Of a stretch of DNA of 64,000 nucleotides, positions 3,101 to 49,542 are shown one piece after another. Origin of the DNA: Apostichopus japonicus (lineage: Eukaryota; Echinodermata; Holothuroidea; Aspidochirotida; Stichopodidae). The position numbers and the translations under genes were made by a program. Positions within the stretch are counted from its first letter, which is position 1, and each line of letters begins with the position of its first letter. The DNA lies in assembly GCF_037975245.1 (NCBI RefSeq), contig NC_092568.1, forward strand, positions 31,404,501 to 31,468,500. The letters are read 5' to 3'. The notes beneath the pieces are model-generated. The model did no database searches and was not told where the DNA came from. It worked only from the letters and a program-made list of their open reading frames with translations.

Positions 3101-6100
3101 CTGGGACTGTTGCTGGTCACTTCCAGAAGAGGAAGGTTCCTGCTGCCCTGGTGGAGGAGGAGGAGGACCTCCAGGGGGAGCATGGGGGAATCCTGCTCCT
3201 GGCTGAAAGGGTGGTAGCCAAAAAGGGTAACCTGGGAATGGCGGCATAGCTATCGATGAAGTAATTGACAGAAAACGGTGGAAAAGTCATTGAAAGTGCA
3301 GAGGAAGAAAGTCAAGGTAAGGGTGGTATTAAACATTTTGAAGATTCCAAATATCACTTGCAATGTCTCCTCACATGTACAGAAGCATTCAATTGTTTTT
3401 TTTTTATAAATGAGTCACTTTTGTAAGCTTTCTTTTCATTTGCATCTACACGCTTGTTGACCCCTGAAACTAAATCTGATCAAGACACTACCATGTTGTA
3501 ACTAAACTTCACTACCACTGACTACTACCACCCGTAACTACTGTACATGGTTTGATTTGATATCTTCCCAGTGGTCATGTTCATACATGGCAACATCAGA
3601 TCTGTAAAATTCAGTTTTCTGTCCAAGAAGGCACAACTTTAGTCATTAGGTTGCCTCATCAAAGTTATCAAAAACATACTGGCTTCAGTCCCGATTCTTA
3701 TATGCAAAGTAGATTATACAAGGTAACTCTGGTATCAAATTGTGATAGTTCTAGGTAAAAGTGTTTGTTTAGCTTTTCTCAAGATTTTAAATAAGTTTGC
3801 AACATTACAGAAACAAACTAATGGCTTCAATACCTTGTTCTTATTTGCGAAGTAGGATACCAAAGTGAAGTCTGTGGAACAAAAGGTGTGGGCTTAGTGT
3901 CATGTCTGTTTTTACAGGAAAAAGACTCTCCCCAGATTTTAAAGCATCTGTTTACAGCATTTACAAAACTAATTGATAGAAACAGTTTCTGTTCAAGTGC
4001 AATCAGCACTTAATGGTTTTTTTTACCTTTTTTATTTTTTATTTACTGGTTTTTATTTATTGGTTTTTATTTACTGGTTTATTTATTTTTTATTTACTGG
4101 TTTTATTTATTTTTTATTTACTGCTTTTTTTTATTCTATTTTATTTTATTATATTTTATTTTATTTACTGGTTATTTACTGGTTTTATTTACTATAGTGG
4201 TTTTATTTACCTTGCCCAGGCTGTGGCATGTTGTTAGCTTGTGGCTGTTGTGGTTGCTGTGGTTGCTGGGCTGGTGGCTGCTGTATCTGTCTCACAGATG
4301 CTCTCAGCACATCCATTCTGCAAGTCGGGCAAGTCTGTTGTCTCTGAAACCAAGATCTCAAGCAACTAGTATGAAAGATATGATTGCAAGGTAGTTTCTT
4401 GCAAGCTGTGTTCATGTCTTCCCTGCAGATAATGCACACATTGTCCATAGATGCGAGTTCCTCTGGTGTGGCATCTGGATATCTGGAGAGATGGGATATA
4501 AACAGCAGTATGAAACCAAAGGATCATAAAATAAAAACTAGGTTTGTGCTACTTGACCTTATATAGTTTTGCTTTATACAAAGTAGTATATGTATTGAGA
4601 AAGTGTTTGCAACCCTTCCCAACATTTCAATATGTGTTGTTGTATTAGTTGCTCTGTTGAAAGAATGCACAGACAGACATTAAAAAATTAGTGCAATCGT
4701 TCATTAGCTTGCTACAATGTCCAGATCAGAATGTAAGAAGTACTTCTTACGTACTTCATTGAAGTACGTTTAACGTACTTCATTGAAGAATATCAGTATT
4801 CTTTTCTTTAACACTGCGTCAACAAATTGGCTGAACATGTAGATACTTCTCAAATGAGATAAAGCATTGCATTCAACAAATTGGCTGAACATGTAGATAC
4901 TTCTCAAATGAGATAAAGCATTGCATTCAAAATAGCGCAAATTGTGCTGTTGTGGATCTCTTACACAATGCCTACTATAAGTAAATATTACAGGAACAGC
5001 ATTATAAACTTAAGCTCTGGCAAAACTGGTAATGACGTGACAAATTGGGGTAAGAGATACCAGCCAGAAAAGAAGAAAAAACGGGAAAATAAAGAAGCAT
5101 TTTGATGTAGCTCAGTGATTACATATCACCCTGGAATACAAGCAGCCTGAGAAAAAGAAAATCTGACTGTTCATAAAATCAAGCTGCTTCAATCTTCTCT
5201 GATATGCAACGAAAAAATAAGATAAACAGTCCTCAATGTGGAAATAAGACTTAAGTATACGCACAAAAATTATCTAGCTTATCTCAAAATGGAATGAAAA
5301 AATACATAAGGATATAAGTTGATATCAACAACCCATTAATCTTCATGAACTGTTTCACAGTCCTTGTTTACATTTGATATTTTGAAGGATCCGTACATAA
5401 CTAAATCTGAACATGCCGTTAATTTGGAATGTCGTATATGATGTATGAGGGTATGATGCATTACGCTTGTTACTTACAATGTGTTCATGTTTCTGATTGC
5501 TCTTCGAGACATGATGATATCGTTGACGGCCTTCTTAAAGGACCTTGAAGAAAGAGAGGAGGGCAATTCGTTAAGAACCAACTCGGTATAGAAATGAAAG
5601 CTACCACTTATAAATGTTTACGAGAAAACAGTGAGTCTTTCAGAGGTGTAATTGGTCGAAATGTTGTAGATCCCTGTAATGGGATGATAAAACAGTTCTC
5701 TGCTCCTTTTACCAAAATGAAATTTCATGAAGAGTTAAGCAAGAACACACTACAGCCAAGACTGCCTTGCTTGCGTGATTGCAGGTATTATAGAAATACG
5801 TCCTGAAGGTCGCATAAATTATGCATTACATGAAAACACAAACAGAAAACTGGCAAGTTTAGCCTCATTTGCACAGAAAGCACTCAATTATACCGAATTT
5901 GAAAATTATAGGTGTTTTGGCGTTAAAGCAATTTTTGAATGAATTGCTGATTTTTAACATGCCATATACAAATGCAATAACCTCACCTAGTAAAGTTTTC
6001 TTAGTTCAAATAATGCATATATGTTCTAAAATGTTTGGAACTTTGACTTTTGAATGTTGTTTGCTAGTGGTATAGACCATTGTCTATGCATAAGTGAGAA

Positions 6101-9100
6101 TATCAACACTTTTCTTAGCCTGATTTAATACTTGCGATTTTTTTTTCTATGTAGGGTTTGTAAACTTCTGCGAAAGTTTTGACCATGTGCAAAAAGTTTA
6201 CTTTCACCTACAGAATCTCTTTACAATCTTTAGTGATATCGTACTTAGTCAAAGCTTTAAATAACTTTATTCCTCTTCTTCCAACCCACACATTTTTAAC
6301 CTCCACAATTTTTCAAAATTCTCCACACTCTCTGATATTACCCATCGATGCAAAGCAATTCTGAGAAACCACAGAATGTCATATTCCATTTTTCATCTAG
6401 GCATTGCTTTGATTCAAGCAGTATCAAACAGTTGTTGATAATCTAGCTTGGAAAATGTTATCACACATACTTCATATCTGACATTCTCTCGTCAACAATT
6501 TCAGTCAAACGGAATCTAGGATTGGCATCCATCAATCGACCTTCTAATTGCAAAGTTGTTTTTACCAGTTGGTCGTAAACGGAGAATGTGCTGGAAGCAG
6601 ATATCTCAGGCAGACATTTAAACATATCAATCAATATTAGTGAGTGCGAGTCAGACCTTCCCTTCATCGTTGTCATTCTAGAACGGCTTATTTGGGTTGC
6701 CTTACGGCTGGCAGGATGAGTAATTTTATGGAAAAGAAACCACTTAGGTTGTATTAACTGTGGTTACAAGTTCTCATATGTAACTGCCATGATACACTTA
6801 ACCACTGCTAACCAGGAATGATGTATTAGGGTTTTCTTTTTCTTTCTGAAGAAATAGGATGATTGAGCAAGTAGAATGCATTAGCTTTGGGGAATATTAT
6901 CAGCCTGGAAGGTGGTTATTTTATCACGCTAGCGCCCCAGTTGAATGTGGGAGCAGCTGATTGGCTTGTAACTTACACTACCCGTCGGAATGTGATCCAA
7001 TTAACAGTTTTAGCTCATGTTGGATTGTTGACAATTTAGAAGACCAATTCAGATGGGAAACCATGGATTTTTTGGTGGATGTAAAACCCACCTTTCTTTG
7101 GTATAAACATTGAAAGTGTTATAGGGATACAACCTAAACTGATAGAAGTTGCTTTAAATGGTCTAAGACATAACAAAATTAGTTTTGTTGCTTAAGTCAC
7201 CCTTTAAATGGAAAGGCATTATTACTGCCATATCTGAATTGAAAAATTATTCACAGATCCAAGCAAATGTCGGCATTCTTTTTCCGTTGAAAAATCAACC
7301 AGCATTTAGTGTTTTTGTTTTTTTTCGACTGTAACTCAGAACTTAATATTGTTAAAACTTATTCATAGTTAAAGTTGACGAAGAATCCGTTTTAATAAGT
7401 TTTAAACTACATGAACCTTAACAGGATTTAGAATAACACTTTTCTTTGCATTTCAAAAGCCATTTGTAAGCCAATCACATGATAAGGGTAATGAATAAAC
7501 TTTCCAGGAGAATCACTTCATGAATATGGCAAAAGTAACTAATTAAACATCAGCTATGGTGTACCTGTTCTATTATGCATTGTTAATACCGATTGTCAAC
7601 CAATAACCATGACAGCCATGACCGGAGCCATTAAGTGCTCTGTTGGGCCCAGGGGACGATTCTGTCATTGAACACTCTCCTTGAAGTCGTCATTCTTCTT
7701 AGGTACATTTAGATACATAATTCTTTGTCCATATTTCCCCTGTTGTTCCCTGGCCACACTGTTTTAGACCCCTGATCCCTCTCTTGTCAGGCCTGGCCAA
7801 GATATAACATGACTTATATTCAAGAGAGACAAAGACCCATCGGGTCTGTCAAGTTAAGACAGATAATGTCCTGTTATAACACTTACCTCATAGTGAGATA
7901 CATTGGTCTTATCGCAAACAGAGGGAAGGTATGTATCTTGATCATAATGGCAACGAAAGCAGTGTAGAGGAACACTTTGATGAAACCTGTATAGAGTAAA
8001 TACAAAGAACAAAAGCAGTGTACAAATTAATGAACCACATGATTCTGAAGTTTTAGTTTGAATAGAACTGAAAATGTTTACCAGAATGACTTCAAACAGG
8101 CACATTCCTGCATCCATACCTGTACTATTATCAGTCATATACTCTTAGTGATGCTCACCATGAATATATGTGAACTTTAAGCCTTATGAAACTTAATCAG
8201 TAACAAGCCACAAGAATGTAACAAAATGTAGCAAAATGGTTTGCCATTCACTAGATCATTTATGTTTATTCCACTGTACAAATCCATTTAATTCACAGCC
8301 GACAAGAAGTCTGTACACATTCCTGTGAGCATATCAAGGCCAAGCTTAGAGTGAGATCTGATTCAGTCTAACCAATGTGCTGCACTGACATCACATCTCG
8401 ACGTAAGTCAGTTTTAGATTCAAATTTTCTAGCAGGACGGACCAACATTTCAAGCACTCTATCACGGAAACTAAAGTTCATCACACGGCAGGGCTTAGGG
8501 TGATACAAAGACAAAAAATGATATGACCAGAAAGACTAGATCCCATCTTTCACTAAAATATTCCCTTAACTAATGATATGACCTGGCTTCCCATCTGTTC
8601 TCGTTATTATCACCTTACCCATTATGAGGTCAGTATACAACATGTAGACAGCTTTGTTCTCCCAAGGATTCTCACTTTGAAGATCTATAGTGTGAAGAAC
8701 ATACTTCAAGAGGACACTGCAGATGATTGTAAACAGGATAGCATACTGAAAGAGAAGTACATATTCAGATTAATATTTCATACAAACAAACAAATATGTC
8801 AAATAATACAAACAAATAAATATACAAACAAATAAATAAATATACAAACAAATTTGTCAAATAAACAAACAAGCTAATCATTTCCGGCCTGGAAGATTGC
8901 TGTGTTACAGATTCTATATATTTTTTTTATATATTTTGACTTTCCCACCAACATTTCACCATTCTATCTTAGACTTCTTGGCAATCCAATCAAATCCAAA
9001 TGTTCACTTTAGATTCAGTTTGCCAATTTGGAGAAGGGTTCATTCACATATGTACACTTCTGATAGCTTGAGGTGGAATCCCCACAGCTCTTTGGCTGAT

Positions 9101-12100
9101 CTGAATTTGAACTAATGAACCAGGAGACTATTTATTCTTGTTTCATCCCTTACACTGTCACTGCCATTATCCACTTGGCCATAGCACTCCACTTGGCCAT
9201 ATCCACTTGGCCATAGCACTGGTAACTTTGTGTAAACCTTGACAGAAAAAGCCTTGATGCCTTCCGGTGATGACAATCATATAACTTTACTTTTAATATG
9301 TCACTAAATAAACCAAGGCTATAAAAATTATCTATGCACAGTTTTCTTTTTGCTTGAACTTTCAATGATTACCCTTACTCTGGTACTATTTGATTATTAA
9401 TATTAACTGCTGTAGTAATAGCATGCCAATGATGGTCATTAATCAACTAGGCTCTCTTCTGAAGTGCCATATCAGCTGAATTTCCCAGTCCTTCCCAGTA
9501 CTCAAATTTAGATCGTACAATCTTCTGCTTGACTGTAATTGTTATATTAGGCAATTTCTTCTTGCTTGCAATGAGATTATGACATAGTATTACTAATACG
9601 TTGTGGAGTGTAAGCTCAGTGGTTAACACTGGTGCCTTTCAATCATAAGGTCCCCGGTTCGAGTCACTCCCAGATTAATGTATGTCGTCCAGTTACAGAG
9701 TTGTTGACAATTAACAATTCATAATCATGGACGTTAAATATGAATGTGAGAGACTGACTTCGGTCAGCTTGCAGCTTTGATAAGCCAATTAGGCTTCTTC
9801 GCGAGTTCCTGCTTGCAGGAGGATCTAATATACATACATACATACAATACCCAATGGCTAGACCCTGTGCCATAATTTACAGTTTGATCTGCAATAAATG
9901 TATTTTAGGCCTACGGTACCTGTAACATTTGATTGTAAAAGAACAAAGTATCTCAAGGTAAACATAATGAAATTGTGTTTTACTTCAGAATGGTGGCTTC
10001 AAAAAAAAAAGTGGGTGAGTTCCTGGAAGTGGGTCAGGGAGGGCGCAGTGGTCAAAATTTTACCAAGTTTGGCAAGTTCTGTAGATAGGGAAAGTGGACG
10101 ATTTATGAACAATAAGTTAAGAGAGCAGATAAGTAATATCCATGAATCTTACAACAAAAAAATAATTAATTTGTGTGTCCAATTACAGGGAAAAATAAAT
10201 ATCTAATAAAACTTACTGCTGTTTTACTGTACTTGCAGTAGACAGTAAAATACTGCAGTGAAACATTCAAATCAATAAAACACTTGTCAAATTACCTCAA
10301 AGCCAAATACTAGCTGAACTGTTGCTCCTTTGGTGAGGGTACTGTGGTATGCAAAGTTCACCCAAAGGGAATCCAACGTGCCCAAGAATAAGAGTAAAGC
10401 TGTTAAGATTAAAAGATAAATATTATTTTCATTCATTCCATAACAGATGCTAAGGTGATCTGAAGAATGATGCAAACGATTTGACCAAGAGCACCTTGTT
10501 GAATCTGGTGATATAGTGGTAGGGTTCAGGGAGCATGTACACTCTAACACAGCATTTGGAATTTAGCTGGCGATAGAAACCCAAAGTTTTAGAAATTTGA
10601 CATAGAGAATAATTGGTGTGTACTGTGTAAAATTTCTAATTATTCATTAACAAAATGAAAGGATTGCTTGTAAAGAAATACTTTACAAATGTGACTCGAA
10701 TGAAGGGGCTTCTTAATCTACTATTTTACCACCAAATATCCCAGTGTCATACTCTCAGCTTAAATGGACTAACTGAACCTATTAATATACTGGTCTTTGT
10801 TTTCTTCTCTATCTTTAGAGAGAGACGAGAGAGAGGAACAAACAAAAGCACAAAAATTCATGTATGGAATGACAATTATTTTTTCTAAATTATGAGAAAT
10901 TTTATTTGCATACTACATGGTTTGTGGGATGATCCATATATTAATCAGGAATCTGGGCAAGACAAAGAAATTTTCTACTGTAGCTTTGGTTACCTACTAT
11001 ACTGTATAGCTTAAATTTATTAGATAGGACATTATATTTGCAAACGACCAATAAGAGTTTTAATTATAGTAGGAAATTTTCACCCCTGCTTTCCCTTCTC
11101 CAATGAAAACTTGGAAAGAAGCTGAAAGGCAATTTATATAATTCCAACCATTGCAATTTTTAACTGTATAAACTATAAGGAAGTCCTCCCAAGAAATACT
11201 TTTACTATAAATTCACGCAAACACAGTAAAGTCAAGCAATCACATTGATGGTCAGAGTAACTTACTCTGAAAGGACGAAGAAATATATAAGCTACCCTCA
11301 TAAACCTGTCAATTTAACCATTGGGGAGTCATGGCACAGCCTTTACGGTTGTTCCCTGATCAATGTATTCATAGCTCATGACTCTACAGTATGGACCTTT
11401 TGACAAGCTAGCAATCTTAATAGGTTTGAAGGACTTACTGAGAACTCTTAGATGGAAGAGGACACTAATAACAGGACTTCTTTCCATCTGAATGAAAAAG
11501 AAGGAAATGAGATATTTATTCTTAATTTAAGCATTACCAAATCTGTTTCCTGAACAATGTTGTATTTCCTGTATAACAGATCCTAGATAAGGCATTCCAA
11601 TAAAAATAACACTACATCCTGTTTAGAAAGACATGATGTCCGATTTTGACGTGTAAAACATCTTGTAATGTATCTCTGGCTTAGCCTAACAGCAGATGGA
11701 CAGCCCTATCCATACAGTGTAGGTATACTAAGCGGATACAAATTAATTGAATGAAACAGCTACACAGGACCACCAAAAGCATATTAGATTCCACAGATAC
11801 AGAATAGGGTTCCATGTAACAGAAAACAACATACACTTTTGTTTCATTACACTAATTTCTTCTTTTATTTTTTATTTTTATATAAATTTATACCCGTTAA
11901 TTAAAATGCACTTACATAGTCCACTCTATCTTCAGCTAACCAATGGAAACATTTTAGAAAAAGCAAAAGAGTGAACATGGCCACAAATTTGGGGCTGAAG
12001 TCATCTCTGAAGACTGTGAAAGCAAGACAGGTCTCTGTGACGGCATACCATGACCTCTCTATAAGATGCTGGGGGCAACAAAAAAAAAGGGAAAATCTAT

Positions 12101-14562
12101 TGCATTAAATAAATAATTACAATGAGTGTGTAAACAATACTTCTTGTACCCTTTACGGATGTCAATTATAGGGAATAGTTTAGTTTTTTAAACTTTGTGT
12201 AGCATTTTCGAATGCTCTGATATTTTTTCTCTCAATGAATACTATAGTTCCTGTGTAGAAAGCTGCTACACATCTTTACATACATGTAGCAACTTGACCA
12301 TTTTGTATACATTTTGCAATGTGAAACTGTATAAATTATTCCCAGATGTATCCAAACAAAAACTCAGTATTTTTCAGAGATGTTTGTAACCTGTAACAAG
12401 AAACCAAATGCCTGTATGCAAACCAACAAAAGGTTCTCCATATTTCGGACATTTTCTGAAGCCTCTCTCAGACTCTTTTTCCCCCTCTCTTGCTGTTGCT
12501 TGACAGCTAGCCATTTCCATAAAGTGACTCCCTTACCCAATGAGTAGAAATAATTCTCATCATACAAAATGCAGCCCTAGATAGATGTTCCAGAAATGTA
12601 CAGTACAGTTTAGTACAACAACTAAAAAGCCCATTACAATAATAACAAGGGGTGGGCATTGGTCTGAGGGAGGTCCATCCACAGACTATTTGCACACTAA
12701 CATACTGTATTTAATCTAAACCCATATTCAAAACTATTTAAAATCTCCCATCCTTGCCCTCCTCTTCCCTACTATATGAACAGAGTCCTTGAGCAATACA
12801 AAAGCAGTGCAGAATAAATTGACGGCATAAAGTACCTCCATTTCTGATGCCCTCAGCTGTCCAAAGAAGACTTTCTTCACTAATTTACCCATCAGAATTA
12901 CAAACACGAAAGCTTGTATGTAGAGTACCTGGAAAGAAATATCATTTTCATGTAAAGCAAGTTCATTTTTTACTGATCTATTATTACAACAACATATTAC
13001 AGGTTTATACTGTACATTCCATTATATAATAGTATGACTATTTACAAAACTTTACACCTTAGTACAGTACATAATGTAATGCAGGAGGGTGGGTGATATT
13101 TGCTTAATATTGTACAATTACATAATCACCTAACACTGGAATTTCCCCTCCATTTTTAGTATACAACTAGTGCTGTATCTGCATAGTGCATATACTGTAG
13201 TGATATGCAGTAACATATGTGTGGCCTGTGACACTTTTCATGTATAAGATTCTATATCTAAATGCAACAGAGCATATAAACTGAAATTACATTATATTCA
13301 CAACTTTGATTGGTCATGTAGAAATCCCATCATGAGTTATGTACAGTAACTTGTACACACATCTGACAGAAACAATTCCTGAATACAACTGGCACTGTAC
13401 CACTGTATTATTAAACATGTATATATAGCACTGGTGCAGTGTCTAGGTCTATGGTATACAGAATCTTCCAAATTGCAAACATTACAAGAGTATCAATGAG
13501 TGACCTGTGTCCAGAAGGAATCAGTCACCGCAAGACATGTAGGCATATTTCAGGGTACACACTGTGCTAATAAAGGGAGATGATGGCTTTTAACATCTTG
13601 AGAGAATGAACAATCATCAAATTGTAGGTTTCTTGTGTGACAATTAGCAAATTGTAACAGGACGAAGCAATCTGTGAGTTATGGAATCAAAGTGGAAACT
13701 TTCTACATGCCTTCTATGTATAATACACACACACACACACACAAAATGACCACAGTATGTTTTCAATGTATGTACTGGTGCTCAGTTAATTGTCTAGCCA
13801 TATTTTCAATTCCTTTGTAACTATAAATATTGCTTAAATTGCACAATTAAAGTTGAAGTGGTGGTGTAGATGTAACAGTGTCAGCCCAGGTGTCTGGTTT
13901 AAATTCCCATGAAAAGCTAGCTTCTCTTGACTCATTAAAATTGTAGCCTCACACTGGTGTTGAGAGGGATCTTCCACAGATTTACATTTTTCTGATTTGG
14001 GAATTTGAAAGTGTTGTTACTTCCACATGTATTGATCACTGGTTTGAAACAATATATATTGGCCATGGCTCCAGTAGCGTGATGTTGAATGGGTACTTTC
14101 ACCTCCCTCAGTATATGAGGAAGTGGTCAGATGCTGAGATATACTCTAGCAGGTTGAATGGGTTCCTCAGATCAGGAATGGGTACAAAACTCACATGTCT
14201 TCCTCATTTTGCTCTGGTATACTGTAAGCTTATCAGATGCTTACAGCTGATATATTTGGCAGAACCTCATTAAGTTACTGCCATCTGTAGGCCTATTGGA
14301 ACTTCTTCACAACACCGTGCAACAAACTGAACTACACTCAACAGTAATATGCAGGCCTTGGTCTGTCATGAATGTTCTTGACTGGGGCTTATGAAAGGGA
14401 AAGTAGAAAATCTTTCTCACTTACCGCCATGCTGGGATTTGATTTAGTAATGTAGACCACTGACGGATAAAACTGTTTCTTCTGATAGTAGGCATGTCCA
14501 ACAACCGCAGCCGTCAGCACAAAGCTGGCTGTGGTTAATGCTGCGCCTCTCATATTTATCAT
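1..14562 (-). CDS. SYVN1: SYVN1/HRD1 ER ubiquitin ligase, 12 exons, 3' end beyond window
   Basis: E3 ubiquitin ligase of the ER membrane. The family forms the core of the HRD1 complex with SEL1L, Derlins and HERP and ubiquitinates misfolded ER proteins for the proteasome. Twelve exons with GT-AG borders and matching phases join in the order 14562-14425, 12928-12836, 12068-11916, 11487-11439, 10399-10296, 8745-8619, 7986-7887, 5543-5478, 4482-4211, 3249-3061, 1878-1726, 171-1, giving about 538 residues. Hydrophobic segments lie near residues 5-25, 44-64, 105-122, 142-161, 180-197 and 222-243. A C3H2C3 RING finger lies at 293-331, followed by a Pro/Gln/Met-rich linker and a conserved helix from about 490 (family HAF-H region, reported to bind HERP and FAM8A1). 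I chose the first Met because an in-frame TAG lies 21 bases upstream. The human protein is 617 residues, so roughly 70 to 80 residues are missing at the left edge. Identity is certain; exon borders come from eye-read splice sites and homology. Confidence 0.96.
351..1033. repeat. 42-bp minisatellite, about 16 copies (SYVN1 intron 11)
   Basis: Unit of 42 bases with the core CCTGTTACTAGGTGAAACAT followed by GAACGCTGCAATACCTACC. Starts are exactly 42 apart (351, 393, 435 and so on). Because 42 is a multiple of three, all frames repeat a 14-residue pattern and give false open frames. On the gene-sense strand every unit carries an acceptor-like TATTGCAG and a donor-like ACAGGTAGGG. Confidence 0.95.
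1726..1878 (-). CDS. SYVN1: SYVN1 exon 11: Met/Pro-rich linker (residues 431-482)
   Basis: 153 bases encoding a Thr-rich segment and then a strongly Met/Pro-rich run (NAMPGMPGMPPMPPFMMPPP). It corresponds to the PFPPPWMGMPLPPPFAFPPM portion of vertebrate SYVN1. Acceptor TTTCAG, donor GTAAGTC after one base of a Gly codon. Confidence 0.9.
2022..2790. repeat. 61 to 69-bp minisatellite (SYVN1 intron 10)
   Basis: About nine good copies of a unit containing AGCTAGATTTAGTGCCCCAT, then ACAGAAGGCA, then AGCTACATGCACTAAATGG. Spacings between successive TAGATTTAG cores are 61, 63 and 69, so units differ by small indels. Copies decay from about 2600 onwards. Confidence 0.92.
3061..3249 (-). CDS. SYVN1: SYVN1 exon 10: proline-rich linker (residues 368-431)
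   Basis: 189 bases encoding a Pro/Gly/Phe-rich segment (MPPFPGYPFWLPPFQPG, then a run of six prolines) and a Ser/Gln/Thr-rich tail. Vertebrate SYVN1 has a comparable low-complexity cytosolic linker at this place (PPFPPGMFPLWPPMGPF). Both borders agree in phase with the neighbours: the acceptor GATAG completes an Ala codon and the donor is GTAAGTC. Confidence 0.88.
4017..4208. repeat. T-rich simple repeat (TTTATTTACTGG type) abutting exon 9
   Basis: Imperfect units of TTTTTATTTACTGG and TTTTATTTATT. It ends at the donor of SYVN1 exon 9. On the sense strand the units read CCAGTAAATAAA, resembling the true donor GTAAATAAA, so the repeat may have expanded from the donor itself. Confidence 0.85.
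4211..4482 (-). CDS. SYVN1: SYVN1 exon 9: RING-H2 finger (residues 277-368)
   Basis: 272 bases. Encodes YPDATPEELASMDNV and the catalytic RING-H2: Cys293, Cys296, Cys309, His311, His314, Cys317, Cys328 and Cys331 are all present in the C3H2C3 pattern, and the segment FHTSCLRSWFQRQQTCPTCR is identical to vertebrates. An extra Cys304 replaces a non-cysteine. The RING recruits the E2 and is essential for ligase activity in the family. A Gln/Pro-rich stretch follows. Donor GTAAATAAAA runs straight into a T-rich (sense A-rich) simple repeat. Confidence 0.97.
4749..4769. repeat. Short perfect inverted repeat
   Basis: Ten-base arms ACGTACTTCA and TGAAGTACGT around one T. Half of it repeats directly after (ACGTACTTCATTGAAG at about 4774). 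Lies in SYVN1 intron 8. Confidence 0.7.
4820..4930. repeat. 54-bp perfect tandem duplication in SYVN1 intron 8
   Basis: The block beginning CAACAAATTGGCTGAACATG and ending AAAGCATTGCATT occurs twice head to tail with period 54 and no visible difference, implying a recent duplication. Confidence 0.93.
5478..5543 (-). CDS. SYVN1: SYVN1 exon 8 (residues 255-277)
   Basis: A 66-base exon completing Arg255 and encoding the basic cytosolic linker SFKKAVNDIIMSRRAIRNMN that joins the membrane domain to the RING. Vertebrates have QFKKAVTDAIMSRRAIRNMN. Acceptor TTCAAG, donor GTAAGTA. Confidence 0.92.
7887..7986 (-). CDS. SYVN1: SYVN1 exon 7 (residues 222-255)
   Basis: 100 bases encoding GFIKVFLYTAFVAIMIKIH, the last membrane segment of the core, and TFPLFAIRPMYLTM, identical to the vertebrate motif except for one residue. 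It ends two bases into an Arg codon, donor GTAAGTG. Confidence 0.94.
8619..8745 (-). CDS. SYVN1: SYVN1 exon 6 (residues 180-222)
   Basis: 127 bases encoding the fifth membrane segment (YAILFTIICSVLLKYVLH) and the loop IDLQSENPWENKAVYMLYTD, which aligns to VDLQSENPWDNKAVYMLYTE in vertebrates. It ends one base into a Gly codon, donor GTAAGG. Confidence 0.94.
8770..8875. repeat. AAAT/CAAA low-complexity tract
   Basis: Imperfect ACAAACAAATAAATAAAT run between SYVN1 exons 6 and 5. Nothing else is visible in it. Confidence 0.7.
9605..9846 (+). mobile_element. tRNA-derived SINE (family A), near full length
   Basis: The head looks like a tRNA: GGAGTG at the 5' end pairs with CACTCC, the A-box-like segment is AGCTCAGTGG and the B box is GGTTCGAGTC. 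A body of about 170 bases follows (TGACTTCGGTCAGC and GCAGGAGGATCTAATA are shared by copies), ending in an (ATAC)n tail. Three further copies lie at 43.4, 43.8 and 49.4 kb. The anticodon region of the copies resembles tRNA-Gly(UCC), so it is probably tRNA-derived. This copy lies in SYVN1 intron 5, on the strand opposite to the gene. Confidence 0.88.
10212..10261. repeat. Small imperfect hairpin
   Basis: ACTGCTGTTTTACTGT and, 11 bases on, ACAGTAAAATACTGCAGT form an inverted pair with a small bulge. It lies about 35 bases below the exon 5 donor. No function is evident. Confidence 0.55.
10296..10399 (-). CDS. SYVN1: SYVN1 exon 5 (residues 145-179)
   Basis: 104 bases. It completes the split Thr codon and encodes the fourth membrane segment (LLLFLGTLDSLWVNFAYHS) and then TKGATVQLVFGFE, the family signature TRGASVQLVFGFE. 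Acceptor TTAACAG, donor GTAATT after a complete codon. Confidence 0.93.
11439..11487 (-). CDS. SYVN1: SYVN1 exon 4 (residues 129-145)
   Basis: A 49-base exon encoding MERSPVISVLFHLRVL, matching the vertebrate MERSPNISWLFHCRIV, plus the first base of a split Thr codon. Acceptor CAG, donor GTAAGTC. Confidence 0.92.
11916..12068 (-). CDS. SYVN1: SYVN1 exon 3 (residues 78-128)
   Basis: 153 bases, phase 0 at both ends. It encodes HLIERSWYAVTETCLAFTVF and then the third hydrophobic segment with KCFHWLAEDRVDY. This is one of the most conserved stretches of the family membrane domain. Acceptor CCCCCAG, donor GTAAGTG. Confidence 0.94.
12836..12928 (-). CDS. SYVN1: SYVN1 exon 2 (residues 47-77)
   Basis: 93 bases, phase 0 at both ends. 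It encodes VLYIQAFVFVILMGKLVKK, the second membrane segment, and then FFGQLRASEME, near-identical to vertebrate FFGQLRAAEME. Acceptor CCAG and donor GTACTT are visible. Confidence 0.93.
13724..13744. repeat. (AC)n microsatellite
   Basis: About ten AC dinucleotides in SYVN1 intron 1. Confidence 0.9.
14425..14562 (-). CDS. SYVN1: SYVN1 exon 1 (residues 1-46)
   Basis: Starts at the first ATG of MINMRGAAL; a second in-frame ATG three codons on is an alternative start. It encodes the first membrane segment and the family motif HAYYQKKQFYPSVVYITKS, which matches HAYYLKHQFYPTVVYLTKS of vertebrate SYVN1. The donor is GTAAG directly after a complete GCG codon (phase 0). Confidence 0.93.
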
Positions 14563-17465: not shown

Positions 17466-17875
17466 AATGATATCTTCAATTATTTGATGATATCATTAAA
17501 TCAATTGTTGATATCATTAAATCAATTGTTGATATCATTAAATCAATTGTTGATATCAAGAATTCGAATTGATGATATCAATAATCAATTAATGATATCA
17601 TTAATTCAATTCATTTCTTGATATCAATAATTCATTTAATGATATCATTATAAATGAATTAGTGATATCAAGAAATGATTTAAAGATATATTTAAATGTA
17701 TTTGTGATATGTACATATCACTAATTCGAATTAGTGATATGTACATATCAATAATTCGAATTAGTGATATCATCAAATATGACGTCATATTTACTGATGT
17801 CATTAATTCGCTTTAATGATATGTACATATCACTAATTCGAATTAGTGATATCATCAAATATGACGTCATATTCA
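17466..17875. repeat. GATATC palindrome array
   Basis: About twelve GATATC sites in 0.4 kb, mostly as NATGATATCATT or GTTGATATCATT, with AATTCGAATT palindromes between them, three copies of the 14-base palindrome GATATGTACATATC, and two copies of ATATGACGTCATAT. Positions 17705-17750 form one perfect 46-base palindrome. A repeat of this kind may extrude cruciforms. The family is unknown to me. Confidence 0.88.
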
Positions 17876-18317
17876 TTGCTGTGTGAATAAAGGGCAATGA
17901 CATTAGAAGCAATAAAACCTAGCAACTGGCTGGTCGTTTAGGTTTGGCAACTGGCTGGTCAAAGAAAGGTGGATTTTTCATCCAAGGAACTTCCAAGGGG
18001 TTTGAATATGAAAAAGTCTTTCAAATTATGAACAACTTATAATGAGCCAATATAGGATCACGATGAAAGGTAACCTATATATCGCTGTACTCGTGAAGTC
18101 GATTAGCGGTTAGTAGAAATATCACGAAACATTGCATTTGTTTACATGAAGTATAGGCTTTATCTATATTTTGCAGAGCCTGTACACGCACTGATCATGG
18201 TTAAGTTTGAAATCATCCTTTGATTAATAGTAATCTGTACGAAATAGTTTTCCTTAAATTATTGTGCAGACCAAGCTTCTTGAAGTGTATATATTCTGAT
18301 ATATAACTTCTCAAAGT

Positions 18318-19320
18318 ATCTTATTATTATTATTATTATAATAATCATAATAACAATAATAATAATAATAATAATAATAAAAAGTAATAATAATAATAAT
18401 AATTTACATAGCGCATTATACCGACGGTCCCAATGCGCTTTACAAAAAACAGAAGTACAAAAACACAGTATAGTAGAAAAAAATTAAAGATACACGAAAG
18501 GATCGCAAAATTACATGGTCCAATGAGGGTAGCACATAAATAAGTGAGTTTTTAAATTAAGACACTTTTAAAAATTGTCTATGCAAGGGACATTCGTAAT
18601 GTGGATGGGAAAAATGTTCCAGAGTTTGGGGGCCGCATATTGAAAAGAACGCTCACAGTACATGGATAGCTTTGTAAGTGAGGGTTTGTACTTTATTCTT
18701 TCAGAAACAGGAGGCAAGTGAAGTTGATGGAGAATATTTTTAATTTAATGTGGGATCTGTCATTTGTTATAGGGTAACCTTTCTGGCGGTGATGTTTTGC
18801 ATGATGCGTTGAAGCTAAGAGATTTGATAAGCATGGGAAGTCCAAATAAAAGGCTGTTACAACAATCAAGTCTGGATGATACAAAAGCATGGTTAAGTGT
18901 CTCAATCAACTTTCGATCAAGATATTTGTGAATTTTGGCCGACTTCTCTGATCGCGTGTGCAGTAGAGCGGCAGATATTATTTACATGAGGCACCAATGT
19001 GACCCTTATCATAAAAATTAACACCTAGATCTTTAACAGAAGGAACGGGAGATATACAAGAATCACTCATCTTCACGAGAGTTACAGCGGTGACATTACA
19101 GAACCGTGGCGAAACATGAATCAATTCGGTTTTGTTGTCGTTGAGAATTAGTTTGTTGTTTACACACAAAGTTTTTAGTCTGTTAAATTTCATGTTATAT
19201 AACTGATGATGTACCGTGCAATCATCATCTCTCCATACCGCCGATGAATTCCACCTTGCTAATACGTCAAAATTTGTGCCATCTGTAGAGTTACATATGC
19301 AAGTTTGCCACATAAAAAAA
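18318..19320 (-). pseudogene. Degenerate LINE reverse transcriptase, 3' fragment with AAT tail
   Basis: Read on the minus strand, interrupted frames carry late reverse-transcriptase-region motifs: NNKLILNDNKTELIHVSPRF, then ISPVPSVKDLGV, and near the end RSFQYAAPKLWNIFPIHI, resembling the 'SFxxAAPxLWNxLP' block at the C-terminus of non-LTR retrotransposons of marine animals. The 3' end reads GCGCTATGTAAATTATTATT and runs into an (ATT)n tail at 18318-18405, which is how such elements end. Several stops and shifts break the frame, so it is dead and 5'-truncated. Confidence 0.8.
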
Positions 19321-19329
19321 CGATGTTGA

Positions 19330-21580
19330 TGTACGCAAACACATTTCCTGTTCTTGCGAAACAGAGCTTGTAATCACCACTTGTCCTCAGACTGCAGCAA
19401 TATAGTAGTACACGCCAACGCTATATGAAGCTATACACATATCTCCATTACTTGATATTTAACAGCGCCATCGTTTTTAAACTTCCTATTTCTCTTGCAA
19501 CGCAAAAAGTGCGGAACAACACTATATAGAAAATCATATTTTTCTTTTTTATAAGAGAAAAACAAACAAATTTTCGGGTTTTGAGGCTTGGATTTCAGAG
19601 TACACAAGTACATGTTTTGGGTACATGTTTGAGTTTGGGATGAAGAGGCTTGTTATTGTAGTACGCATGCGCGCTACATTATTGGCATTACTGGCAAAGT
19701 GAACGATACCTACATGACTGGACGTTGAAACTTCAAGTTTAATATAGTCTCTGTACATTTGTAGCTTCAGAGGCTAGCTACGTAGCCAACTTATTCTGAG
19801 CCTGCCATGGCGCTCACAAGCGCCCTCACCATGTATAAGTATACATGACTATACTCCCTGGTATATGTTGTCCGTCCAAAAAAAATAACACAATGAACAA
19901 CAGAAATTAGTTAAGTTCTTCCTACAACTGCAAGCACTCCACTTGCACTAAAATACTGCGTATTTGCAGGCAAATGCTGTTCTAGCTTACTTTGGGCTCT
20001 CACAGCTTAACTTTAACATGGTCATGATACGGAAAGTTCAAGGTGTCATGAATGGACCAACGTGTCGGCTATCTAGTGAGTGGTAGAGCTTAGCAACTTC
20101 TATGATGACTTAGCGAATTCTGCATACACATGTACATAAAAATTCTGCATAATTTGTATTTGATCCTTCCATGTGACATGATTAATTTGTCGCCTGCATC
20201 ACAACACCTTGTGACATTTGGCAGACTATTTATGGGATATCGTTATGATGCTTCCTGCTATAGTAGTAATTCAACATGTACGATATTAATAGCATACGGT
20301 ACCGTACTGATTTATCTATTAACAAGAATGAGATGTACACCATTATCAAGAAAGTCGTTTTTACTCGTGTCCAAGTCACGAGTATCTTTATAAAAAAAAT
20401 GTAACTGTAATTTACAGTAGTTCCAGTTCTTGAACATTTTAATAAATTATAGATTATTAATTTTTGATTATTAATAACTTTTGATGGCCCTTACAAATAT
20501 GTCTTATGTAATTTCATTTGCTGACTTAAAAACGGTTACAAGTAGTAGGGCTATTATTATCAGTGTTAGTATACACAACTTGCCTGGTTCAAATTCGCCG
20601 ACGGGTCCGACTTGAATCATGAATGGATTTGACCCAGTCGACAAGTACATGATTATCCAATAGGTATAGCTGAAGCCAATGTTGCAGCAGTCCCCATTGT
20701 CAAGGGTCCTCCGAGAAAACTCAAACTCAAATAATTCAAATCGTAAAACACCAACACTCTATTGTGCGGTTGAGCCTGTAAGTCTTAATTTGGAATATGC
20801 ACCTTATGATACCATGTATCTTTCCGGTGGTTGTTAACCAGACACTGTATAAGTTCATTAGTTGTTTGCAGTTACAAGGGCTATTTTTTCAATTATCGCC
20901 ATAGTTAAGTCCCATCAGGTGCCAAGTTCAACTCAACGTTTTCTTTTAATACTCAGTGGTTTTTGGTTATTTCATTACTTATAACCAACTTTATACAGGT
21001 ATTTCATCTTGTACGATCATGGGTCAGGGTCTCAGGGGAAGTTGTCATTAAGGTCAGCTCTCATGGTTTGATACAAGGTGGAGGAAGGGCGGCTAGAAGT
21101 AAAAATAAATGGTGTAATCACATTTACGATACGGTACCAAACTTATGCTCATTGGGACCATTTGTGAACGGCCATGCCAGTACAGTGATACCGAAATTTC
21201 ACCCAAACCAGCGGCTTCTCTACCAATATCGTCATTTAAATGTTTGCTTGGTGAACTTATGAAATCAGTTTGACCATTCTTAGACTTTGACTATCTATAT
21301 GTCATTTTGTATTGGCCGTTTGAGAAGGTTTCAATCTTTGTCGCCTTCCATGACGTTTCACTGGAACGAATATCCTGTAGAAAATGCTTATATGTAAGCT
21401 TCTGAAATGACTAAATGTGTTTTCAACGTGACTAACAGTGAGGTATCTTCACGATGAAACGTAAACAATAACACTACTTGTGTAACCGGATACTTTTATT
21501 TTTCCGAAGTTCACCACGATTGCTTGATCCCTTTGTAGCTACATTATACTCTCTAGTACTGATATCAACTTCTGACAAGT
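19330..21580. other. No gene recognised
   Basis: Ordinary AT-rich sequence. A CG-bearing stretch near 19660 (GTACGCATGCGCGC) resembles an NRF-1-type site. The open frame at 20963-21262 has no recognisable domain. Confidence 0.5.
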
Positions 21581-21609: not shown

Positions 21610-21787
21610 ATCGCTTCTCGGCCTTTTGGCTAAGATCATGTGTAGTATCTGTTCTCTTCGGGAATGGTGATGCACACCTGACGACTCACACAGTCACAGT
21701 CCCGATGCAAGGGGACTGGGGCTGAGAGCGGATCAGTCGTTTGGTAGTTTGGTTTTCGTGCCCAGGTTCTTTCCTGGGTGACTTTTT
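21610..21787 (+). ncRNA. U2 snRNA-like RNA, tandem copy 1
   Basis: The first ~45 bases equal the U2 snRNA 5' end: ATCGCTTCTCGGCCTTTTGG, then CTAAGATCATGTGTAGTATC, containing the branch-point-pairing GTAGTA. One base differs from the standard form (ATCATG for ATCAAG). After CTGTTC the sequence leaves U2: there is a TTCG hairpin, GGTG(ATGCA)CACC, CAGTCCC(8 nt)GGGACTG and a terminal hairpin CCCAGG(TTCTTT)CCTGGG, then a T run. I see no canonical Sm site (ATTTTTG). An A/T run ATAAAAAAAA lies about 25 bases upstream. It could be a variant snRNA, a snRNA-derived retroelement or a pseudogene. Confidence 0.65.
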
Positions 21788-21797
21788 CTTAAAAAGT

Positions 21798-21980
21798 ATC
21801 GCTTCTCGGCCTTTTGGCTAAGATCATGTGTAGTATCTGTTCCCTTTCGAGGGGAATGGTGATGCACACCTGACGATGATCACACAGTCACTGTCCCGAT
21901 GCAAGGGGACTGGGGTTGAGAGCGGAGCAGTCGTTTGGTATTTCGGTTGTCGTGCCCAGGTTCTTTCCTGGGCCACTTTT
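21798..21980 (+). ncRNA. U2 snRNA-like RNA, tandem copy 2
   Basis: Second unit, 188 bases after copy 1 and nearly identical in its first 42 bases. Differences fall so that hairpins survive: the second stem lengthens (TTCCC ... GGGAA) and the terminal stem becomes GCCCAGG(TTCTTT)CCTGGGC. The GTCCC/GGGAC stem is retained but shorter. Only about ten bases separate it from copy 1, so it has no room for its own upstream promoter. It may be read as part of a dimer or be a simple duplication. Confidence 0.62.
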
Positions 21981-22189
21981 CTTAAAAATAAAAAACTATT
22001 TCAAATATGGTAGGATACAAAGTCAACACAAGTTAACCAACAATTAATTGACTGTGATCGGAGAAAACTATGTTACGAACATGTGAAAGCAGTTTCAATG
22101 CTCCATTGTGAATATTGTCTCGAAAAACTTTACAAATAATGCATTTTATTTGTAACAAAACGTCTAAAAAATCCAACTGTTTGTTGTCT

Positions 22190-36513: not shown

Positions 36514-37116
36514 CTGAGAACAGCAATTTTCTTCACTGACAGTATTTGTAGTTATCTCTTATCTTATGCCTTAAATGCAGTGCAGTGAACATTGGAGGGA
36601 TATCTCGAGCGTCTCATAACCCTCAAGGCCTGAAGGTATATATACGCTGGACTCAATTTAATCGCAGAGCCTTTCTGAAGACAAAAACGTGTAATTGCCG
36701 CTCTCTCTCTCTCCCGTTTCCTCATCGGCAGGAGAGTTGGCTGTTTTTGACCTTAAAACAAAAGGTGTGTACATTTTGATATTGATTACAGAGTGGCTGA
36801 GCCAGAGAAATGTTTTCAGCTAATGAGATTAAAATCCTTAAAAGCAACTTTAAAAGGCAGTGTGAGATTTACTGCGATAATTTATAGAGGTATCCTGTAT
36901 GCGTACACATGTACGTGGGCAGACGGGTGCGGGAATGTGCTAATAATTTAGGCACTAATCTGCATTGCATTTCGGGAGCTTTTGAGCCTTGCTGTAGTAC
37001 TAAGTTTAATAATACTGATTGTTGGCTGTGTGAAATATACTCTATAAAGTTAAGAATTACTTGGTTTTAGAATTAAAAATAACAAGGCAAACTTGAACTA
37101 AGCGTGCAACATGATG

Positions 37117-37888
37117 AGTATGGGTACAAGTAGAATTACCCTTGAGTACAAGTAGACTTCTACTTGAGTACAGGTAGACTTGTACTTGAGTGCAAGTAGA
37201 CTTCTACTTGAGTACAAGTAGACTTCTACTTGAGTGCAAGTAGACTTCTACTTGAGTACAAGTAGACTTCTACTTGAGTTCAAGTAGAATTACCCTTGAG
37301 TTCAAGAAGACTTCTACTTGAGTACAAGTAGACTTCTACTTGAGTACAAGTAGACTTCTACTTGAGTGCAAGTAGACTTTTACTTGAGTACAAGTAGACT
37401 TCTACTTGAGTACAAGTAGAATTACCCTTGAGTACAAGAAGACTTCTACTTGAGTACAAGTAGACTTCTACTTGAGTACAAGTAGAATTACCCTTGAGTA
37501 CAAGAAGACTTCTACTTGAGTGCAAGTAGACTTCTACTTGAGTGCAAGTAGACTTCTACTTGAGTGCAAGTAGACTTCTACTTGAGTACAAGTAGACTTC
37601 TACTTGAGTACATGTAGAATTACCCTTGAGTACAAGAAGACTTCTACTTGAGTACAAGTAGACTCCTACTTGAGTACAAGTAGACTTCTACTTGAGTACA
37701 AGTAGAATTACCCTTGAGTACAAGAAGACTTCTACTTGAGTACAAGTAGACTTCTACTTGAGTGCAAGTAGACTTCTATTTGAGTAAAAGTAGACTTCCG
37801 CTTGCATGAGTACAAGTAGACTCCCCTTGAGTACAATAAGACTTCCCTTAGTGTACAAGTAGAATTCACCTTGAGTGCAGGTAGACTT
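37117..37888. repeat. 22-bp hairpin minisatellite, about 35 copies
   Basis: The unit CTTGAGTACAAGTAGACTTC plus TA repeats. Every unit contains TCTACTTG-AGTA-CAAGTAGA, a perfect 8-base inverted repeat around a 4-base loop. A variant unit with GAATTACC recurs irregularly (about 37133, 37286, 37420, 37485, 37615, 37705), giving a higher-order pattern. Divergent at both ends. Confidence 0.95.
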
Positions 37889-37889
37889 A

Positions 37890-40800
37890 AAAAAGGCCTA
37901 GAGACTAGAAGGAAAAGTTCTACAAATTCTGGGGGCGGGTATGAATACTGGCAAGTGAAATGTTAGAATACATTAGAAAGAGTAGGGACTCGCTACAAGT
38001 ATGTGAGGAGGTAATTTATTGCCCTCCTATGTTACCAATCTCTACTCTTCTGTTGCAACTTTGTAATGTTTGAATATCTATGTACATACCAAGCCCAGAC
38101 TGACCTATTTCCTTGAACCTCTTGGGAAGAATTACCACCAAATACAGGTGTGTACAAATTAGAATGAAACGATTATTCAGATTGTAAGTATATTTTAATT
38201 AGCATAATATTCTTCAGGCTACAGTCATCCTTCTTTTACAACTTTTTTCTTCTTCTTAATACTACCAAAAATTTGGTCTGCCCAATTACAAAAATTTCAA
38301 AATGTATCTAGCAGACTATAGATTCATCTTGTGAAGATGAACTTCATTTTGGTATAAATTGCCATTTAAAGTCATAAGTTACTTGAAGTTGAATATTTTC
38401 AGCACTTTTAATCCATTCCATCTTGTTTCTAAGACACCATTTTATAAATTTATATCACTATATAAATTTGGTAAATAATAATAATTTTATATTATTCATT
38501 AATTTGCCAGATTTTCAATTCATCAAGGTTATCAGTATATAGCCATGTACTTCAGCCCATACAGTATTAATACATACAGTACTGTCTAAGAAACATTTAG
38601 TATTCAAGTTATCATAATGTTGAGTAGTGTGAAAGGCTCTCTCTTATTGAACACACCATTAGTTACTGTGTTAAAACCTACTCTACATTTTTGTAGAGCA
38701 ATAAGAACATTTCAATTTGTATGTCATTTTGCACAGCATTTTCCCATGCAAATACCTGAGAAATTATTCCCTGACTGTACTATAAATTGTCTTTGCCTGT
38801 TAACAGTAAACGTGGACCATGTAATATATACATAGAGACATATATATCTATATCTATATATATATGTGTATATATATATATATATATACTGTACAGTTTA
38901 TATGTTGCACAGTCGATTACCTTCTTCTTGTTGCTACACTATACTCATTGACACACATATTAACCTACAGGATACTGTCTGTACAGTGAGTCATCATAGC
39001 CTATGGTTCAATTCATCCGATCCTCTGGGATTAAACCCAGTTTTATTTTAAACATTAACCTCAGAGCAGTCTTTCCCTTTGCGTATACTATTGAGCTACG
39101 AGGACAGAACGATTTGTAGATCAACGTATCTCCGACCATTTGTTTGGCTCAACGGTGCCTAAGCAAACTAACGGATGGAACTGTACATGAGTGTATATAT
39201 AGACGCTTAATTACGAGTGTGATGATTGGCGACAGTTAAATGGCCTCCGATGTATTTTATGTAAACAGTTACAAGTATTTTACCAGTTTATGCTAGATTT
39301 GTGTCTCACTTTAAAACAATCTTGACATTGATTTTGTGAAATATTCGATGCAACGAGACAGGGAATAAAATTATGCGGTTTAATATTATGGTTTGTCAAG
39401 ACGATTGTTATTTCAAATATTGACAAACATATGTAAAAACAAATAGCAATGATATGTGATTTGCTTTTAAAAGTTATTAATACAAATAATGATTTTAAAA
39501 TTGTTTTGAATAATAAAATGAAATCTTAAATTACTTTAATGGCTAAGTTAATTGTAACTTAAATTTGATAAATAATGTGTGTACATTGCTTTAAGGGGAG
39601 AAGAAGGAGGAGGAGGCTGTAATCTCATGTTAATTATTTAGTTGGTTTGTAAAAAGCGAATGGAACAATTGACAAATCAAGTGCTACCTAACAAGCTACT
39701 TTAAAGTTGTTGTTAGTGACTTTTTGAAGAATGTGCAGTCTTAGGACGATTCCTAAAGTGAGCAATTAGTAGGCATATCTACTCAAATCTTCTCAATGCT
39801 TTCCAACTTTTTTTGAAAAATTTCCTCCATATTTTTTATTTGTAAAGGCATATCTCCTCTTGTATTAACTGTTTTTCACCACATATGGGACTAATTTGCA
39901 TTGCTAAGTGCCTACTGTATATATGTATACAAGTATGTTATGTACTCCATTGTTTCTTTCAATCAAAAGTACACAATTTGCCAATTAATTTTAAAAGCTT
40001 CATTTCCCATTTTAGGCCTTTTGTTTGTCTCATATTCTTTGCAAGTCTACAGGTCCAAACATTTCAAACTTCTCCCTTGAAACCTAAATTCTGTAAATCG
40101 CAATTACTTGAAAGTGCAAACACAGACAAAAAGGATAGAAAAATGTCAATAGGTACCCCATAGGGGTGAATTGTATGAATATTTCTCTACAGTTGGCTGC
40201 ATTCTAAATGAGTTGTGCACTTTTCATTTATAAAAAAAAAGGATGGTTATTGTGGGTGGATTTTAAGTAAAATGAAATTCAGAACTCAAAGTACATGTAT
40301 ACAAACATGCAAACAATAAATTATTTGCTACAATGTATTTGCAAACCAGAATCACTCGTTAGTTGCTTGAACATGGTTCTTTAAGAGGCGGTGGTGTGCT
40401 AAATTCGGGAAGGGTGGGGGGGGAGGGGTGCATAGCCACTATGTTTAGCATTAGTTGGAGGTAGGATTTTCAGTCAGGGAAGTTATTACATTAAATCTGT
40501 CAGGAAGATGTAGATCGCTCCTTGGGTCACAGGAGAGCCTACCATAAAGACCTCATTCCCCTACCAAACTCAGTTGGGAGAATTTTCAATTGTCCATCCC
40601 TCTCGCCCCCCCCCCCCCACCCAAACACACACAGTTTGAAAGCCTTTTCATGTCATTGCTAAGAGGTTTGCTTTCTTCCCAGAGTCATCTTTGCCTCAAT
40701 AACAAATAAAAGTAATGCCTAGATCAGTGCACCATTAAACAATGACAAGTATACTAAGGTTTTAAAGCTTAGCCGCTAGGAAAGTATGGTAGGCTACAGA

Positions 40801-43370: not shown

Positions 43371-43379
43371 ATCCAAAAA

Positions 43380-43555
43380 TAAGGTCCCCGGTTCGAGTCA
43401 CTCCCAGATTAATGTATGTCTTCCAGTTACAGAGTTGTTGACAATTAACAATTCATAATCATGGACGTTAAATATGAATGTAAGAGACTGACTTCGGTCA
43501 GCTTGCGGCTTTGATAAGCCAATGATGAGGATCTAATATACATACATACATACAT
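43380..43555 (+). mobile_element. SINE family A, 5'-truncated copy
   Basis: Begins inside the tRNA-like head at AAGGTCCCCGGTTCGAGTCA and follows the 9.6-kb copy, with a deletion of the GCGAGTTCCTGCTTGCAGG part before the (ATAC)n tail. Confidence 0.9.
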
Positions 43556-43714: not shown

Positions 43715-43943
43715 TGTATGTGCATGTATGAATTTAGATCCTGGATCCAGGAACTTGCGAAGAAGCCTCTTTGGCTTAGCCACAAGCCAACCGAAGTCAG
43801 TCTCTTAGATTCATATTTAACGTCCATGATTATGATTTGTCAACAACTCTGTAACTGGATGACATACATTAATCTTGGAGTGACTCGAACCGGGGACATT
43901 ACGATTGGAAGGCAGCGGCATTATACCACTGAGCTAACACTCC
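43715..43943 (-). mobile_element. SINE family A, near full-length copy, inverted to its neighbour
   Basis: On the minus strand the head reads GGAGTGTTAGCTCAGTGG ... CTGCCTTCCAATCG ... CCGGTTCGAGTCACTCC; the GCTGCCTTCCAA part equals the tRNA-Gly(UCC) anticodon arm. The body and TGACTTCGGT motif match the other copies. The tail shows as TGTATGTGCATGTATG on the plus strand. Confidence 0.9.
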
Positions 43944-49288: not shown

Positions 49289-49542
49289 TGTATGTATGTA
49301 TTGTTTGTATTTTAGATCCTCCTGCAAGCAGGAACTCGCGAAGATGCCTCATTGGATTATCTAAGCTGCAAGCTGACCAAAGTCAGTCTCTTAGATTCAT
49401 ATTTAATGTCCATGATGATGAATTGTCAATTGTCAACAACTCTGTAACTGCATGGACGACATACATTAATCTTGGAGTGACTCGAACTGGGGACCTTGTA
49501 ATGATTGGAAGGCACCGGCGTTAACAACTGAGCTAACACTCC
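49289..49542 (-). mobile_element. SINE family A, full-length copy
   Basis: On the minus strand it starts GGAGTGTTAGCTCAGTTG, has B box AGTTCGAGTC and CACTCC, then the shared body and an ATAC-type tail (seen as TGTATGTATGTATTG). It retains the CGCGAGTTCCTGCTTGCAGG part missing in the 43.4-kb copy. Confidence 0.9.

Follow-up and report, generated by a model that had tools for sequence, protein, structure and literature searches.

Genes and repeats around the locus

Two abutting units, each beginning with the 5′ end of U2 snRNA, lie on the plus strand of a 64-kb window (the whole stretch of DNA analysed here), some 7 kb upstream of where the first coding exon of a SYVN1/Hrd1 E3 ubiquitin ligase gene was matched. 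The SYVN1 gene (4299-14550, minus strand) has long introns. A human SYVN1 query produced eight exon-like matches on the minus strand from 14550 to 4299, all at E 4e-8 or better and 48-89% identical, and by these matches the window is animal DNA. In a Pfam search that took in ten of the 271 open reading frames (ORFs) of at least 55 aa, the RING finger (zf-RING_2) scored 46.5 bits against a cut-off of 27.3. Two further rows belong to the N-terminal TPR family of SYVN1, one above its cut-off of 31.4 (40.5 bits) and one below it (24.4 bits).

A tRNA-type SINE is present in four copies, some of them partial (9624-9838, 43372-43525, 43778-43923 and 49302-49502), with a tRNA-like head that contains the box-B-like GGTTCGAGTC or a close variant, and with a ATACATACA-type tail. 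This SINE is reminiscent of those of echinoderms; twenty of its letters found no match in the literature. ARAGORN called no tRNA genes. An ORF at 18981-19373 (minus strand) looks by eye like a fragment of a LINE reverse transcriptase, and had no Pfam match at E 0.01.

Organization of the two units

The tandem was reported by TRF as 2.0 copies with a period of ~190 bp in the 64-kb window, and alignment of the two units placed their starts 188 bases apart, which agrees with the initial annotation of this locus. Each unit consists of U2 nt 1-45 (the head), followed by a body of ~125-130 nt (Table 1). The terminal hairpins were seen in the consensus fold and in a bacterial promoter/terminator scan, used for hairpins only.

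Table 1. Features of the U2-headed tandem, in window coordinates.
Feature	Position	Strand	Description	Basis
Unit 1	21610-21797	+	U2 head, body, terminal hairpin, T5 run, short A-tail	Rfam U2, TRF, alignment to unit 2
Unit 2	21798-21988	+	Abuts unit 1; A-rich tail continues to 21995	Rfam U2, TRF, alignment
U2 nt 1-45 (head), unit 1	21610-21654	+	T at nt 30 vs A in human U2	
U2 nt 1-45 (head), unit 2	21798-21842	+	Same letters as head of unit 1	
GTAGTA letters, unit 1	21642-21647	+	Mostly paired in predicted free fold	
GTAGTA letters, unit 2	21830-21835	+	Mostly paired in predicted free fold	
Hairpin of U2 nt 27-45 and body start, unit 1	21636-21681	+	-14.5 kcal/mol; 23/2000 head-fixed shuffles as low	
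Lengthened hairpin of U2 nt 27-45 and body start, unit 2	21824-21873	+	-19.7 kcal/mol; 1/2000 head-fixed shuffles as low	
Central hairpin GTCCC...GGGAC, unit 1	21699-21716	+		Fold prediction
Central hairpin, unit 2	21893-21910	+		Fold prediction
Terminal hairpin GCCCAGG-TTCTTT-CCTGGGT, unit 1	21760-21779	+	T5 shortly 3′ of it	
Terminal hairpin GCCCAGG-TTCTTT-CCTGGGC, unit 2	21954-21973	+	T4 shortly 3′ of it	
T5CTTA5GT tail and junction to unit 2	21783-21797	+		Direct reading of sequence
T4CTTA5TA6 tail, unit 2	21977-21995	+		Direct reading of sequence

Extent of the U2 similarity

At the gathering threshold, the two U2 heads were the only Rfam matches in the whole 64 kb. The matches to U2 (RF00004) covered 21610-21690 in unit 1 (55.7 bits, E 2.5e-08) and 21798-21874 in unit 2 (52.6 bits, E 1.4e-07), both above the gathering score. 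In the Rfam alignments the similarity is confined to the first 45-46 nt of both units, nearly all other model positions being skipped. Compared with human U2, nt 1-45 contain a single mismatch at nt 30, where both units have T instead of A, while extension to nt 55 raises the number of mismatches to 7 in unit 1 and 9 in unit 2. The letters that characterize the 5′ domain of U2 snRNA, i.e. stem I and GUAGUA, are present in both units. The initial description of an almost exact U2 5′ domain with GTAGTA, from which the sequence then departs, was therefore accurate, and the Rfam U2 model, proposed there as a check, recovered both units.

Credible similarity ends at ~nt 46, and U2 stem-loops IIa, IIb, III and IV are absent from both units. 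For the body, no credible Rfam family was found in a search of 901 bases at E up to 10, which returned eight rows: the two U2 matches and six others at E 1.4-9.8, below their gathering scores.

Predicted folding of the units

The whole units fold better than shuffled sequences (unit 1, z -3.18, 1/400 as low; unit 2, z -2.49, 8/400). For the bodies by themselves the difference is smaller (z -2.04, 11/400, and z -0.15, 167/400), and when the head was kept fixed and only the body was shuffled, energies as low were reached in 0/400 cases for unit 1 and 8/400 for unit 2. The head therefore appears to be part of the fold. The branch-recognition segment lies within the strongest predicted element, a hairpin that starts at U2 nt 27 and extends to nt 72 in unit 1 and nt 76 in unit 2; besides the few head-fixed shuffles that equalled it (Table 1), whole-body shuffles were as stable in 27/2000 and 6/2000 cases. 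In the consensus fold this long hairpin is accompanied by the central and terminal ones, and the 5′ end of U2 forms a helix with the body, in competition with U2 stem I. The initial description of four other hairpins is borne out in part.

The units were also said to keep the branch-site-pairing 5′ end, which holds for its letters, but in the predicted free fold most of them are paired with the body. The modelled probability of being unpaired is 0.00-0.39 at five of the six GTAGTA positions in the units and 0.63-0.70 at A35, as against 0.92-0.98 at five of the six positions in human U2 (0.08 at G33). Similarly, the per-pair probability of U2 stem I is 0.12-0.17 in unit 1 and 0.01 in unit 2 (174-nt piece), compared to 0.80-1.00 in human U2. 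Forcing stem I costs 2.5 kcal/mol in the consensus fold and leaves the GTAGTA hairpin in place, whereas in the single units it leaves nt 36-39 unpaired in the model, so that half of GTAGTA (nt 36-38) opens; for this reason the burial of GTAGTA is uncertain. The head-body duplex energy (RNAduplex) was not significant (38/500 and 39/500 shuffles), and the number of head-body pairs stood out weakly in unit 1 (32/400) and strongly in unit 2 (0/400). For unit 2, the piece used in the duplex test and in the fold with stem I forced was 174 nt long and ends inside the terminal hairpin; the shuffle tests used 177 nt.

A hammerhead ribozyme was considered on account of CTGANGA at nt 69 (unit 1) and 73 (unit 2), and was rejected, as the GAAA core is absent.

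Differences between the units

The units differ in 17 of 192 aligned columns, with none of the 45 head columns and 17 of the 147 body and tail columns affected (Fisher P 0.014). When the differences are counted as events (10 substitutions and 4 indels) P becomes 0.024, and with substitutions alone 0.12. The unchanged head hints at constraint, at P 0.014-0.12 depending on the counting mode; because of the value of 0.12 with substitutions only, we treat it as weak evidence.

The differences in the body were compared with a simulation in which the same kinds of substitutions, together with the insertions, were placed randomly in the body of unit 1 (n=400 pairs). The observed consensus energy was reached by 4/400 simulated pairs and the observed structure conservation index (SCI) by 17/400, while 32/400 of the changed copies equalled unit 2 in stability. 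Going by the 4/400 simulations, the differences between the units seem to keep the predicted fold better than random changes do, in a comparison of n=2 sequences in which all tests rest on one folding programme. The earlier statement that the hairpins survive the differences is correct for the second stem, which lengthens symmetrically from 6 to 8 pairs, and for the terminal stem, where a G-U pair of unit 1 corresponds to G-C in unit 2, as originally noted, but not for the central stem, which A89T shortens from 7 to 5 pairs in unit 2.

Boundaries, tails and transcription signals

U2 nt 1 is the exact point at which the two units start to resemble each other; the left flanks are unrelated (...AACGCA in unit 1, ...AAAAGT in unit 2). 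Unit 2 starts directly at the end of the unit 1 tail, with no spacer. The tails have T4-5-CTT-A5 in common, and the dimer ends in A5TA6. No convincing target-site duplication was detected: the longest word shared by the searched flanks is an A-rich 8-mer, ATAAAAAA, which stops 16 nt short of the U2 start and thus lies off the element edge.

As observed from the start, a canonical Sm site (A-U3-6-G-R) is absent from both units and each of them has a T run near its end, T5 in unit 1 and T4 in unit 2. The AGTTTGG of unit 1 is one mismatch away from RAU3GR and unit 2 has no such site at one mismatch; a near-miss of this kind occurred in 643/5000 random 30-mers. An ancestral Sm site, TATTTTGG, from which each unit would be one change away, is not claimed here, as it is one of four possible ancestors and near-misses are common by chance.

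No box B was found in either unit when one mismatch to GWTCRANNC, or two to GGTTCGANNCC, were allowed. A box A-like stretch with one mismatch is found inside the U2 head of both units, and a second one in unit 2 at nt 123. The head also contains a T4 run at nt 15-18, as long as the presumed terminator of unit 2, and a run of this kind should hinder pol III. Transcription of the units by pol III is thus weakly supported: the T-run ends would suit it, but the T4 in the head and the lack of a box B would not. The same applies to the chimeric pol III RNA suggested initially, which has the T runs at the unit ends in its favour and these two features against it.

Searches for further copies

Within the 64-kb window blastn gave no further copy of the unit, its next best row (E 0.11) being internal to unit 1. 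With a covariance model built on the body there were three rows in the window: one for each unit and a weak one in antisense orientation inside unit 1. The body pattern gave zero matches in viral contigs and zero in genome contigs, collections other than those of animal genomes, so that these zeros say little. The same is true of the head pattern, with zero matches in viral contigs, and of blastn against phages and plasmids, which gave no match, since animal genomes are not part of these collections. The papers listed by the literature search added no U2-headed element to those discussed below.

Comparison with known U2-derived elements

SINE heads are mostly derived from tRNA, 7SL or 5S RNA, and to our knowledge heads from pol II snRNAs are rare. 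SINEU, from the work of Kojima in 2015, are reportedly crocodilian SINEs with heads derived from U1/U2 snRNA. The units resemble such elements in being short and in joining the 5′ part of U2 snRNA (in the units, from nt 1) to an unrelated body; by description SINEU are known from crocodilians, and the present units were found at one locus in 64 kb. Compared with U2 snRNA itself (RF00004), they have nt 1-45 in common with it, including the stem I and GTAGTA letters, but have no alignable stem-loops past nt 46 and no canonical Sm site, and their head is predicted to pair with the body. As summarized in PMC7245038, SINE heads typically come from 7SL, tRNA, 5S or snRNA and serve mainly as the internal pol III promoter, with Kojima 2015 cited among the sources for the snRNA-derived ones.

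Two further systems are described in PMC4640811. One is U2_sat, a satellite from the U2 gene in Ciona, which likewise consists of tandem repeats with U2-derived sequence; set against it by description, the present locus has two units only, with boundaries at RNA ends. The other comprises LINEs that insert in U2 genes: Utopia is reported there from several animal groups including sea urchins and starfish, and on the downstream side of U2-inserted LINEs (Utopia/Keno) the U2 sequence begins at nt 39. The units involve the same 5′ region of U2. A U2-targeting LINE insertion was nevertheless rejected as an explanation, as downstream U2 would be expected from nt 39, while in the units U2 reaches nt 45 and is followed by the body and then only by nt 1 of the next unit.

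Origin of the tandem

We tentatively read the two units as a retroposed head-to-tail dimer of a small U2-headed composite RNA, comparable to SINEU elements, a reading to which we give nearly half of our belief. The source RNA would have had a 5′ head made of U2 nt 1-45, from the first nucleotide of the transcript, joined to a body of ~125-130 nt that ended in a stable hairpin followed by a T-run and a short A-rich tail. A LINE reverse transcriptase may have started at the tail of this RNA, copied it as far as the 5′ end of the U2 head and then switched to the tail of another RNA molecule, so that no spacer would separate the resulting units. Selection for structure probably maintained the source RNA, given that body and head fold together and that the differences spare the fold; an active source gene elsewhere and a LINE partner would also be implied. 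We infer reverse transcription with template jumping because the similarity starts at U2 nt 1, no spacer separates the units and no promoter was carried along. A duplicated snRNA gene normally brings its upstream promoter and may start anywhere, whereas an RNA copy starts at transcript nt 1; the chance of a random 188-bp phase falling on U2 nt 1 is, by our own estimate, ~1 in 188. Among the three options offered initially, the snRNA-derived retroelement fits best, given the RNA-level boundaries, the missing spacer and the A-rich tail. Precedents for it are the snRNA-derived SINE heads (PMC7245038) and, in PMC4640811, U2_sat and the U2-targeting Utopia LINEs. Several observations weigh against the retroposed dimer: the window has no further copy of the unit as against four of the tRNA-type SINE, there is no internal pol III promoter beyond the box A-like stretches and no convincing target-site duplication, and the evidence for head constancy fades with substitutions alone.

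The units might instead be a functional, lineage-specific pair of RNA genes, i.e. U2-derived snRNA-like RNAs in which the body keeps the branch-pairing segment within a hairpin and which, once opened by a protein or an intron, could act as decoy, sensor or regulator of U2. The fit of the body to the head, the few shuffles that matched the GTAGTA hairpin and the structure-sparing differences all speak for this, as does the consensus fold, where an unpaired linker precedes the stable terminal hairpin, the arrangement of Sm-class RNAs, together with the AGTTTGG of unit 1. We nonetheless find it rather unlikely, since the Sm near-miss is common in random sequence and missing in unit 2, an upstream promoter has no room before unit 2, A89T breaks pairing, forced stem I frees nt 36-38 in the single units and the head-body duplex energy alone is not significant. 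A working snRNA variant, another of the initial options, is not supported though conceivable, with no canonical Sm site and no promoter room at unit 2. That a lineage-specific RNA is maintained in which the new body holds the U2 branch-recognition segment in a hairpin, as a switchable U2 mimic spread by retroposition, strikes us as improbable. The absence of both the Sm site and box B would suit a dead one-off chimera, produced by a single reverse-transcriptase switch from U2 to another RNA, with the insertion then duplicated and now decaying. LINE-1 insertions chimeric with non-coding RNAs are on record (PMC13174262), no second locus was found in the 64-kb window, and when only substitutions are counted the head does not come out as significantly more conserved than the body; yet the fold-preserving change and the body-head fit are ill-suited to neutral decay of a random joint, and we judge such a chimera unlikely. 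The tandem arrangement with its ~190 bp period would also allow the units to be a piece of a satellite array that derives from U2 and spread through unequal exchange at the DNA level, as the Ciona U2_sat offers a precedent (PMC4640811), but with two units only and a left edge that coincides with U2 nt 1, this is very improbable.

If the retroposed-dimer reading is true, a U2-headed SINE outside the known hosts would mean that U2 RNA has repeatedly been captured as a head, and such an element would raise the question of its transcription without an internal pol III promoter. If the RNA is functional instead, it would be a natural decoy of the U2 5′ domain.

Other repeats in the window

At E up to 1, Rfam reported ten sub-threshold miRNA-family rows in the whole window in addition to the two U2 matches, located in AT-rich palindromes at 17.5-17.9 kb, a 22-bp minisatellite at 37.2 kb, a TA-rich stretch at 38.8 kb and a stretch of C/A/G runs at 52.2 kb. 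The palindromic, repeated AT-rich stretch at 17685-17878, where such matches occur on both strands, might be a MITE-type hairpin. Minisatellites were observed with 22-bp units at 36989-37926 and with 20-bp units from 54847 to beyond 55900.
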